A DNA stretch of 37,680 nucleotides from an uncultured bacterium (GTDB lineage Bacteria > Planctomycetota > Phycisphaerae > Phycisphaerales > SM1A02): NCBI GenBank assembly GCA_903927725.1, contig CAIYOC010000006.1:1-37680 (forward strand). Reading direction: 5' to 3'. The position numbers and the translations under genes were made by a program. The notes under the pieces were generated by a model. The model saw nothing but the letters and a program-made list of their open reading frames with translations, had not been told where the DNA came from and did no database searches. Positions 24,452 through 34,731 of this stretch are shown here, piece after piece. How positions within the stretch are numbered: position 1 is the stretch's first letter; each line of letters opens with the position of its first letter.

Positions 24452-25681
24452 ATGCACCGAATGCTGTCGCTCATCGTCGCACTTTCTCTCAGCTCGGCGG
24501 TCATCGCCCAAGATGGCGGTCTGTCGGGGCCAACCTGGGGCGAGGGACCGTCGGAGACCGGCTCGGGCGGCAGTGCCGATGCGGGGACCGAACCCACCAC
24601 GGCGCAGAAGGTTGCTAGCCCGAGCTCCGACAGCGGCGGTTCGCCCGCGACCAAGATCAACGGTCGGACCTCCTCGTCAACCGCGCTCCTGGCGACCGAC
24701 ACCGTGGACCTCTATGAGATCCGCATCTCGTCACCGACTGCATTCGAGGTCAACACGAGCGGCTCGACCTTCGACACGGTGCTGTTCCTGTTCCGCAAGT
24801 CGATCAACGCCAACGGCGTGCCCGAGGCCTATCCCGTCGCGATGAACGACAACGCCGCCGTGGCCGGCAACACCAGCGGCTACTCCCAGATCAAGAACAT
24901 CGTGACCACGACCGGCGGATCATCGATCCCCAACTTGACGGCAGGCACGTACTACCTCGGTGTGGCCAGGAGCGGTGCGGTGCCTCTGCGGTGCGGCATC
25001 GATCCCACGTACGGAGCGCTCTTCACCTACACCGCGGGCTCAACGCAACTCGTGCTGCCGACGGGTAATCAAGGCAGCTTGAAGCTCTGTGAGTGGAATC
25101 TTGCCGCGGCCGGCGGCGAGTACTCGATCAATCTCGTCGGCGGCGTCACCGTGCCCCGCAGCTCCACCTGCGTTTCGGCGCCGGTCCTGGGCCAAGGCAC
25201 CTACTCCTTCGGCAATGCCGGGACCGCCGATGACTCGGAAGACCGCCGGATCGGCCTCTTCAACATCTGCGGCATCAGCGGCGGGTGGCTCGCCAACCCG
25301 ACGTGGTTCCGAGTGGCACCCTGCAACGGCCAACTCACGGTGCGCATCTGCCCAACCAACACCGCCGCGAACATCTATGGCTTCGTGCTATACCGAGGCT
25401 CCTGCGGCAACCTTGAGCCGATCGGCTGCGGGTCCTCGGCTTCAGCAACAGGGTGCGCCCGCGGCGCCGAAGGAACCTTCACGGTGGAACAGTGCGACGA
25501 CCTGTACGTGGCGTTCGGTCCGCTCGCGTTCACCTCTCCGGCAAGCGTCGTGACCAGCCCAGGGGCCATCGTGATCCAGTGCGCTCCTACCCCGGTCTGT
25601 CCAGCAACCGCGGACATCAACGGTGATGGCGCCGTGGGTGGAGATGACCTGGCCCTGCTCCTGGCCAGTTGGGGAACGTGA
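24452..25681 (+). CDS. Secreted PPC-like protein A with dockerin-like tail
   Basis: A 409-residue exported protein and first of four paralogues. A signal peptide (MHRMLSLIVALSLSSAVIAQ) is followed by the shared mature start 'DGGLSGPTWGEGP'. Domain 1, about 40-210, is a pre-peptidase C-terminal (PPC/DVUA0089)-like sandwich with 'DTVDLYEIRISSPTAFEVNT', 'FDTVLFLFRK' and 'IPNLTAGTYYLGVARSGAVP'. Domain 2, about 215-375, has 'GTYSFGNAG', 'NPTWFRVAPCNGQLTVRICP', 'YGFVLYRGSCGNLEPIGCG' and 'DDLYVAFGP', with paired cysteines. A single dockerin-like Ca loop, 'ADINGDGAVGGDDLALLLAS' then WGT, ends the protein. AGGAGG lies 5 nt before the ATG. It is separated from B by 129 bp and may be its own unit. Enzymatic residues are not evident; a binding or structural role is likely. 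Confidence 0.88.
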   Translation: MHRMLSLIVALSLSSAVIAQDGGLSGPTWGEGPSETGSGGSADAGTEPTTAQKVASPSSDSGGSPATKINGRTSSSTALLATDTVDLYEIRISSPTAFEVNTSGSTFDTVLFLFRKSINANGVPEAYPVAMNDNAAVAGNTSGYSQIKNIVTTTGGSSIPNLTAGTYYLGVARSGAVPLRCGIDPTYGALFTYTAGSTQLVLPTGNQGSLKLCEWNLAAAGGEYSINLVGGVTVPRSSTCVSAPVLGQGTYSFGNAGTADDSEDRRIGLFNICGISGGWLANPTWFRVAPCNGQLTVRICPTNTAANIYGFVLYRGSCGNLEPIGCGSSASATGCARGAEGTFTVEQCDDLYVAFGPLAFTSPASVVTSPGAIVIQCAPTPVCPATADINGDGAVGGDDLALLLASWGT

Positions 25682-25810
25682 TTATGGGCTGAAAGTGTGT
25701 AAATCCATGCATATTCAGTGCTTGTCCGTTTGAATCCGACCAATCCGCGGCGAGACTCTCCCACCCCCGAGGCCTGTGGCCCCGGATGGTGTCATTCCCG
25801 TGGAGGCTCC
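25682..25810 (+). promoter_or_regulatory. AT-richer gap between secreted genes A and B
   Basis: This 129-bp gap starts with an unusually AT-rich stretch ('AAAGTGTGTAAATCCATGCA'), the most AT-rich spot near the cassette. It is a good candidate promoter region for the B-C-kinase 1-D-kinase 2 set. Exact hexamers cannot be assigned. Confidence 0.35.
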
Positions 25811-32318: not shown

Positions 32319-32325
32319 GGCGCCC

Positions 32326-34731
32326 ATGCATGACGATGCCCCGACCGGCGGCATGACCACGCTCGGCGCGACTGCGGCGCACGACGCACTTGCCTGGGCG
32401 CATGCCCTGGTGGGCTCGGAACGTGGTCGTTACCGCATCGTGTCGCTGTGCGGTATCGGCGGTTTCGGTGCTGTGTTCGAGGCCGAGCAGCTCGCACCGG
32501 TGCGGCGGCGCGTGGCGCTGAAGATCCCGAATCCTTCCGTGCGATCGCCTGCTCTCGATGCGCGATTCCAGGACGAGGCCCAGTCGCTTGCGTCGATGCG
32601 CCACCCGGGCATCGCCACCGTGCTCGATGCAGGTGTGCTGCCTGGTGGTCTGCCGTTCATGGCGATGGAGTTCGTGGAAGGCCGGCCATTCGACGACGCG
32701 GCCAACGACCTGCGGCTGCCGCTCGACCAGCGCATCGCGCTGCTGGCGAGCGTGTGCGATGCGGTGCAGCATGCGCACACCAAGGGCATCGTGCACCGCG
32801 ACCTCAAGCCCGCCAACGTGCTGCTCGAGGTGAGTGACCGTGGCGTGCGTGCCAAGGTCATCGACTTCGGCGTCGCGGCACTCATCGATCATGACGTCCC
32901 GTCCACCGACGAGGCCCACGGCACGCCGGCCTTCATGAGCCCGGAGCAGCTCGCGGCGTCCGGCGACATCGACACGCGTGCCGACGTTTGGGCTCTCGGC
33001 GTGATGCTCTTCCAGCAATTGACCGGCGTGCTGCCATGGCTGCCCAGCGGCGAACGTTCGCTCGATGCGGAGCGTGTCTCGGCTGCAGCACTGCCCCTTG
33101 CGAGTGCGCAGTGGGACACCCTCGGCTCCGAGCAGCCGATGCTCCAGTCGATGGAGGCCACGCGTCGTGCAACGACCGACCGCACCCATGCGGCCGCGAT
33201 CGGCGGTGATCTCGAAGCCATCTGCGCCATGTGCCTGGCTCGGGATCCCGAGCTCCGCTACGCCAGCGCCGCTGCGCTCGCCACCGACCTGCGCGCATGG
33301 CTGCAGCGGGATCCTGTCGCGGCGATGCAACAGAGCTTGCGCTATCGCATGCGCTGCATGGTGCGCAAGCATCCGCGGACGGCCTTCGGGCTCGGCGTGG
33401 CTGCCGCCGGAACTGTTGCTGCGGCTGTCGCACTGGGCGTGCTCTGGCAACAGGCTCGCCGCGCCGAGGCGACGGCGATCGTCAGCCGTGATCGGGCCCA
33501 GCGCACCCTCGACACCTTCCTCTCGAGCCTGCGGGCAGCGGATGCACTTGCTGCCTCGAACGATGCGGCGGTCACGATCCCAGCGCTGCTCGAGCGCATC
33601 GAGTGGAATGCGCAGGCCGACCTGGCCGAAGACCCCACAGCGCTGACGAGCGTTCGCGACACGGTGGCGGTCGTCTACCTGGCGAACCAGGATTTCCAGG
33701 CCGCACGGCGCAACCTTGATGCGGCGATCGCGACCCATCGGCAGATGGTGGCGGCAGCTCCCGATGAGGCCGCACGCATCCGTGCCAACCTCGAGCTTGC
33801 GGAGTCGCTGCACCACCTCGGCAGGGCGCGCTGGCTCCTGCAGGATGTCGCTGGTTCGCGCGAGGCGTTCGTCGAGAGCCTTGCGTTGCGCGAAGCGGCC
33901 GATCCCACAGCGATCGAGGCGATCGCCGACACGATGCAGATGGTCAGTGCGGTCGAGGAGCGCGCAGGCAACCCGGCGCGGAGCGACGAGTTGGGCGAGC
34001 GGTCGATCGCGCTGCTCAAGGATGCAGGTCGGCAGGGGAGTGATGCGCATGTGGCCGTGCTGATGACGCGCGCCAACACGCTGCTGCGCTCGGGCCGCAC
34101 GGGCGAGTCGATGGACCGCTTCGCCGAGGTCGCCCGCGTGCTTGCGACGGCGGGGCGACCGGATGATTGGCGCGCCGGCCGCGCACTGAGCCAGCTCGCG
34201 CTGCTGCAGGCGAAGTCGGGCGACCCGCTGGGTGCTCTGCCCAACTACGAGCGTTCGCTTGAGATCAGCGCCCGGCGGTTCGGCGCTTCGCACCAGCTCG
34301 TGACGAGCATCCATCACCGGATCGCCGAGCTCGTGCTGCAACAGGGCGTCGCACTCGACCGTGCGCGTGATCACGCCGTGCTGGCGATCGATGGTCGAAG
34401 GCTCGATGGCCGCAGGCCGCTCGACCTGGCAGCCAGCCTCGAGCTCGGGGCACGCATCGAGCGCGCACGCGGCGATCGAGCGCAGTCCATCGCGCTGCAG
34501 CGCGGTGCGCTCGATGTACGCCGAGCCGCGAATCCGATCGGCGATGCATCGACGATGGTCTGCACGGCGACGCTTGGTGACTGGCTTGCGCAGGATGGGG
34601 CGTGCGACGCCGCGCGGCCGACCCTGCTCGAGGCGATCGAGCGTGGCGAGCGGTTGGCAGGCACTGGTCCAACGGTCGACGCAGCGCTGGCGGCGGCGCG
34701 CACGGCCCTGGCTCGATGCACTCAGCCCTGA
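32326..34731 (+). CDS. Transmembrane Ser/Thr protein kinase with C-terminal TPRs (kinase 2)
   Basis: An 801-residue paralogue of kinase 1 with a much shorter N-terminal tail. The kinase domain is at about 35-330: 'CGIGGFGAVFEAEQ', Lys66 in 'RVALKIP', 'IVHRDLKPAN' with Asp159, 'KVIDFGVAAL' with Asp180, 'GTPAFMSPEQ' and 'DVWALGVMLFQQLTG'. All catalytic residues are present. A membrane helix at about 353-374 ('AFGLGVAAAGTVAAAVALGV') separates it from the external helical-repeat region. That region aligns with kinase 1 in segments such as 'RAQRTLDTFLSSLRAADA', 'LPNYERSLEISARRFG' and the 'PDDWRAGRALSQLALLQ' unit. It follows protein D just as kinase 1 follows C. Start 32326 is chosen from TACCAT 7 nt upstream; ATG 32317 is the alternative. 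The 3' end overlaps the convergent flavodoxin-like gene by 10 bp. Confidence 0.92.
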   Translation: MHDDAPTGGMTTLGATAAHDALAWAHALVGSERGRYRIVSLCGIGGFGAVFEAEQLAPVRRRVALKIPNPSVRSPALDARFQDEAQSLASMRHPGIATVLDAGVLPGGLPFMAMEFVEGRPFDDAANDLRLPLDQRIALLASVCDAVQHAHTKGIVHRDLKPANVLLEVSDRGVRAKVIDFGVAALIDHDVPSTDEAHGTPAFMSPEQLAASGDIDTRADVWALGVMLFQQLTGVLPWLPSGERSLDAERVSAAALPLASAQWDTLGSEQPMLQSMEATRRATTDRTHAAAIGGDLEAICAMCLARDPELRYASAAALATDLRAWLQRDPVAAMQQSLRYRMRCMVRKHPRTAFGLGVAAAGTVAAAVALGVLWQQARRAEATAIVSRDRAQRTLDTFLSSLRAADALAASNDAAVTIPALLERIEWNAQADLAEDPTALTSVRDTVAVVYLANQDFQAARRNLDAAIATHRQMVAAAPDEAARIRANLELAESLHHLGRARWLLQDVAGSREAFVESLALREAADPTAIEAIADTMQMVSAVEERAGNPARSDELGERSIALLKDAGRQGSDAHVAVLMTRANTLLRSGRTGESMDRFAEVARVLATAGRPDDWRAGRALSQLALLQAKSGDPLGALPNYERSLEISARRFGASHQLVTSIHHRIAELVLQQGVALDRARDHAVLAIDGRRLDGRRPLDLAASLELGARIERARGDRAQSIALQRGALDVRRAANPIGDASTMVCTATLGDWLAQDGACDAARPTLLEAIERGERLAGTGPTVDAALAAARTALARCTQP

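Follow-up and report, generated by a model that had tools for sequence, protein, structure and literature searches.

PknS is a kinase with a periplasmic TPR region that directly phosphorylates the ECF sigma factor encoded adjacent to it (PMC13147305; PMC8999054), and its activation from the periplasm was left open (PMC13147305). Other bacteria have ECF groups under kinase control, and such groups have been predicted in Planctomycetes (PMC8999054, PMC8103513). Planctomycete membrane kinases with outer TPR arrays are numerous and the input that they sense is mostly unknown, according to the accessible portion of a published survey (PMC11032199). Planctomycetota kinases of such design are predicted to have a cytoplasmic kinase domain and mostly periplasmic TPRs (PMC11032199). 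The locus described here pairs two kinases of this kind with exported proteins.

The window, by which we mean the whole stretch of 37,680 nucleotides that was analysed, carries six genes on the forward strand between positions 24452 and 34731. They follow the order A, B, C, kinase 1 (K1), D and kinase 2 (K2), and the order, single strand and coordinates given in an earlier, sequence-only reading of this DNA are borne out. The gaps between successive genes are 129, 27, 21, 88 and 22 bp. The cassette and its two flanking genes are as follows.

23627 to 24292, + strand: SprT-like flank (PF10263, 51.7 bits), which borders the cassette in those members of the genus whose contigs extend there
24452 to 25681, + strand: A, 409 aa, with a signal peptide, GPTWGEG, a PPC/DVUA0089-like domain, a second Cys-paired PPC-like domain and a single dockerin-like tail
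25811 to 27166, + strand: B, a paralogue of A, 451 aa, with an extra Cys-rich module ahead of the tail
27194 to 28369, + strand: C, a paralogue of A, 391 aa, immediately upstream of K1
28391 to 30907, + strand: K1, Hanks-type Ser/Thr kinase, 838 aa (Pkinase, PF00069, 144.7 bits; TPR_12, 72.9 bits), with the kinase domain at residues ~70-359, a predicted membrane helix at ~395-413 and a predicted extracytoplasmic TPR superhelix at ~430-830
30996 to 32294, + strand: D, the most diverged paralogue, 432 aa, with GPTWQE, a Cys-rich module and the tail
32317 to 34731, + strand: K2, Hanks-type kinase with a TPR half, 804 aa (Pkinase, 130.4 bits; TPR_12, 48.4 bits)
34722 to 35327, - strand: flavodoxin/WrbA-like flank, named from its sequence, the right border in most genus members with contigs that reach it

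Within the cassette, no sigma-70-type promoters were found and terminator-like sites were no more frequent than the range of shuffles; an Rfam scan of the window returned no hits. Two other genes keep their place in the genus: a HTH_11/WYL-like regulator (22339-23535, - strand), divergent from the SprT-like gene and kept beside the cassette, and a PSCyt2/PSD1 (DUF1549/DUF1553) planctomycete protein (17895-20888, - strand), conserved to its left. The window also encodes a reprolysin-like metalloprotease carrying FG-GAP repeats (13673-16255, - strand) and a long (527 aa) signal peptidase I-like protein (8785-10368, + strand), which the Peptidase_S26 model matches over a short stretch only.

The four exported proteins are paralogues that align over their whole length, with core identities to A of 51% (B), 46% (C) and 35% (D). 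GPTW, DLYEI and FLF are invariant in the alignment, which agrees with the paralogy, common start and shared motifs given in the sequence-only reading. No other locus of the genome, assembled as 2.5 Mb in 283 contigs, encodes the full-length family. Among the four, B and D alone have the extra CCSxVCAxDPxCC module; a 1477-aa open frame elsewhere in the same genome (G000:C36:2772-5693) contains many tandem CCxxVCxxDPxCC Cys-rich modules like theirs. The first domain had been called PPC-like, and the likeness is recovered weakly for A, B and D (17.6, 14.8 and 20.5 bits against PF04151), yet these scores lie below the Pfam cut-off of 25.9 and C gives none. The best named family for this domain is DVUA0089 (NF038127), although A, B and D (24.1, 25.6 and 18.9 bits) again stay under the cut-off of 29 and C has no score; a homologue from another genus (locus L102) passes it with 37.7 bits. 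A PDB sequence search with the exported domain found no match. The structure that AlphaFold2 predicts for B (mean pLDDT 72.6) has two beta-rich domains, and its best PDB fold match, the tandem collagen-binding domain of ColG (s3as3b; E 2.4e-7, low TM-score), fits tandem PPC-like domains. The first 28 residues of the model, GPTWGEG included, are poorly predicted, which is only suggestive of disorder because the alignment is shallow.

K1 and K2 are also paralogues, 40% identical with the TPR half included. The motifs GxGGFG, VALK, HRDLKP(G/A)N and DFG are intact in both and, together with the Pkinase scores, identify them by sequence as Hanks-type Ser/Thr kinases. Judged by hydropathy only, each has one strong hydrophobic segment between the kinase domain and the TPRs (K1 395-413, K2 358-376), the arrangement of a transmembrane receptor kinase in which one membrane helix separates the kinase from an outer domain. 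With a cytoplasmic kinase and a single membrane helix, the TPR half should lie outside. This predicted topology supports the external TPR region proposed earlier and is the same as that predicted for Planctomycetota kinases in PMC11032199. AlphaFold2 models the TPR half of K1 as a confident helical superhelix (pLDDT 88.5). Searched against PDB sequences at E values up to 0.01, this half matched kinesin light chains (KLC) or bacterial KLC-like proteins and no others. The fold matches KLC2 with a Trp-acidic peptide (6f9i) and also LGN, OGT and designed TPRs; thus, the fold alone is no predictor of the ligand.

The association between exported proteins and kinases extends well beyond the window. 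Searched with the core alignment, 85 of 151 genomes from the window's family gave matches, and 60 regions from this search were scanned for kinase linkage; a class-level search, with a query built from mostly linked loci, then added 40 regions. Outside the genus, a kinase gene lay within 3 kb in 36 of the 40 loci with the exported N-terminal domain, so the case that would have counted against a functional link, widespread homologues of A-D never linked to kinases, did not occur. Genomes holding such loci have 2-44 kinases each, and we estimate from ~13 kinases in 3 Mb that chance would place one within 3 kb about 4% of the time. For 34 of 44 exported-protein genes outside the genus the kinase is downstream on the opposite strand, and convergent pairs mostly have fewer than 60 bp between the two stop codons. 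Counted by genus, with the window's genus as one, a linked copy is present in 22 of the 28 genera whose matches reach 125 bits or more, and in 6 of 11 and 4 of 8 among weaker matches; the linkage counts ignore phylogeny and carry a slight bias toward linkage, as a copy with insufficient flanking DNA was kept only where it was linked. Close homologues of A-D at L094, L095, L096 and L110 had no kinase within the DNA examined.

The kinases that stand beside these genes are of several kinds. The linked kinases occupy at least three clades in a tree built from 118 kinase domains: one that is sigma-associated, one comprising the K1/K2-like kinases with g25 and g42, and a third with L118, L119, L125, L130 and L194. 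The starred branches of the tree force at least six changes between linked and unlinked, a rough count because unlinked kinases were mostly sampled by their best Pfam scores. Furthermore, the pair is co-directional in the window's genus, divergent in g42 and convergent in most others, and the class-level search found it in other Phycisphaerae families as well. Pairing is therefore not one inherited gene order. Linkage inside a single genus is partly plain synteny, as would be expected of an accidental neighbourhood kept by descent without any functional link, but the several kinase clades, the three orientations and the spread across families make that explanation very improbable. Thus, the linkage first suspected at this one locus is conserved in different genera and families and reappears with kinases of distinct clades. 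We conclude that the association is real, conserved and recurrent, and here locally multiplied. A functional link between exported protein and kinase is well supported by genomic context, whereas the direction of that link and any direct contact between the partners are inferred.

The local multiplication took place at one site. Across the genus, in contigs that reach them, the cassette has the SprT-like gene on its left and the WrbA-like and ThuA genes on its right (the WrbA-like gene was not matched in G078). A contig search with alignment A3 returned contigs of the genus only (MAGs). The smallest cassettes (G078, L093) pair a single exported protein with a single kinase and the largest (G117, L080) have five exported proteins ahead of the kinase; D and K2 form a unit in genus members. 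The window's genus has thus multiplied exported proteins and kinases in place.

Because the exported-protein genes keep co-occurring beside kinase genes, their product is probably what the outer half of the kinase responds to. On balance we favour, somewhat more than even, reading the cassette as a locally multiplied Phycisphaerae receptor-kinase module in which the TPR half has the exported protein as its cognate partner and kinase activity depends on it. At the stable core of the module would be a single exported protein, DVUA0089/PPC-like and with a mature N-terminus of the GPxW type, and a single Hanks-type kinase whose cytoplasmic catalytic domain is joined through one membrane helix to a TPR superhelix in the periplasm. 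The C-terminal tail would keep the exported protein in the envelope or at the surface, and the protein would act as ligand or co-sensor of the TPR half, so that its presence, absence or assembly state would be relayed as kinase activity. With two kinases and a set of exported variants, the window's genus may be equipped to take several inputs.

A much less likely reading starts from the C-terminal tails of the exported proteins. Each of A-D ends in a loop of the type DxNGDG...DLAxLLxxWG, as might be expected if dockerin tails docked the four proteins into a cellulosome-like assembly monitored by the kinases. A type I dockerin has two calcium loops, scores at least 22.9 bits and has a cohesin partner. 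The tails of A-D have a single dockerin-like loop that scores 14.0-14.8 bits or nothing against Dockerin_1 (PF00404; cut-off 22.9), and a search of the window's genome found no cohesin above the cut-off. Two cohesin-like matches below the cut-off (G000:C146:4320-4589 and C235:4009-4158) lie in frames with the contigs and lengths of two dockerin matches. The same tail occurs on dozens of other proteins of the genome and is therefore a genome-wide feature and no mark of the cassette; no kinase was seen within ~1.5 kb of the proteins at other sites of this genome that carry the dockerin tail or the Cys module. In many other genera the N-terminal domain is joined to a PEP-CTERM-like tail, and in others to a dockerin-like tail, in some cases together with Cys modules. 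An exosortase was found in all 21 of the genomes tested, the window's among them, so the PEP-CTERM and dockerin-type routes may both be open. On these grounds, a role of the dockerin loop as a binding part special to this system is not supported. A cassette-specific dockerin-cohesin assembly was rejected, and we regard a cellulosome-like organization monitored by kinases as highly unlikely.

A candidate output for the receptor-kinase module comes from the relatives. In many of them the kinase gene overlaps or abuts a preceding ECF sigma factor gene, forming an ECF sigma-Ser/Thr kinase module, and the kinase probably signals to the sigma factor encoded just upstream. Several genera also place a HscA/DnaK-like Hsp70 gene ahead of the sigma factor and kinase (L098:7773-9650, L101:7073-8914, L102:13167-15038 and other loci). 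Both companions of the pair in relatives are additions to the sequence-only reading. The window has no ECF sigma factor adjacent to a kinase, and nine genomes of the genus hold no recognisable copy of the locus sigma factor (best matches ~33 bits, against ~280-350 bits for most of its members, an approximate comparison as the two come from different models). Among 20 aligned sigma factors of the relatives, most have D at the first and D/E at the fourth DAED position, in place of the uncharged residues of the ECF43/EcfP type. An EcfP mechanism is therefore not indicated.

Genes next to that of an ECF sigma factor are often under its control, and in most relatives the exported gene lies outside the kinase operon, in convergent orientation, as a possible member of the regulon. 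The exported protein could then be the output: the kinase, via the ECF sigma factor in relatives, would sense something else by its TPRs and switch on its neighbour as the main effector. In the sigma-linked loci, however, a crude method applied to the DNA ahead of the exported genes found no common promoter-like dyad above shuffles, and the pair is kept and multiplied in the window's genus, where the sigma factor was not found. We therefore hold this reversal of roles to be possible, though on the unlikely side. TPR superhelices are also frequent scaffolds. If the TPR half were a periplasmic scaffold or chaperone that places or assembles the exported protein, with the kinase domain controlling that step in place of sensing, the Hsp70 gene that accompanies several relatives would find a ready role. 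Yet all catalytic motifs are kept in both kinase domains and the sigma factor association in relatives points to signalling, which renders such a scaffold improbable.

Returning to the exported protein as the signal for the kinase, its mature N-terminus offers a candidate contact. Among homologues outside the genus, a start with GP (or GR) and an aromatic or related residue at the fourth position is present in 62 of 65 linked versus 12 of 31 unlinked proteins (Fisher P ~2e-9, statistics that ignore phylogeny); distant unlinked members often have a W-x-E start without GP. In the window the Trp is followed by GE in A-C and by QE in D, which puts the acid at +2. The KLC TPR groove accepts disordered peptides in which acids flank a Trp (PMC6214655). 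The likeness of the TPR half to KLC, together with the GPxW tail of the exported proteins, is a lead only, drawn from sequences and models. Taken together, the kinase might read a Trp-acidic-like GPxW(D/E) N-terminal tail through a KLC-like periplasmic TPR groove and so inform the cytoplasm of export or of assembly at the surface; by multiplying the proteins that bear the tail as well as their readers, the genus would have built a small system with multiple inputs. We consider this joint reading doubtful.

Comparison with described systems sets the cassette apart in part. Domain 1 of the exported proteins weakly resembles DVUA0089 (NF038127) and PPC (PF04151), from which A-D differ in the tandem second domain, the tail and the Cys module. 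The KLC TPR domain is alike in sequence and fold to the TPR half, and KLC is a eukaryotic cytoplasmic motor subunit. The kinases are of the Hanks-type transmembrane kind found in PknS-EcfK of Xanthomonas citri and PknT-EcfP of Vibrio parahaemolyticus (PMC13147305; PMC8999054), and many relatives of the cassette share the kinase and ECF sigma arrangement of these systems. Unlike them, the cassette has no sigma factor on site or recognisable elsewhere in the genus; unlike ECF43, the sigma factors of the relatives mostly retain acids at the DAED position. The conserved, recurrent gene partner gives TPR kinases a concrete candidate input, with short motifs to mutate that make the question of sensing directly testable. 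Planctomycetota TPR kinases have the same domain order and topology, with a cytoplasmic kinase, a single span and periplasmic TPRs, and the accessible portion of that survey covers domain architecture, with TPR function mostly unknown (PMC11032199). To these kinases, as to PknS-EcfK and PknT-EcfP, the cassette and its relatives add a conserved exported partner encoded beside the kinase.
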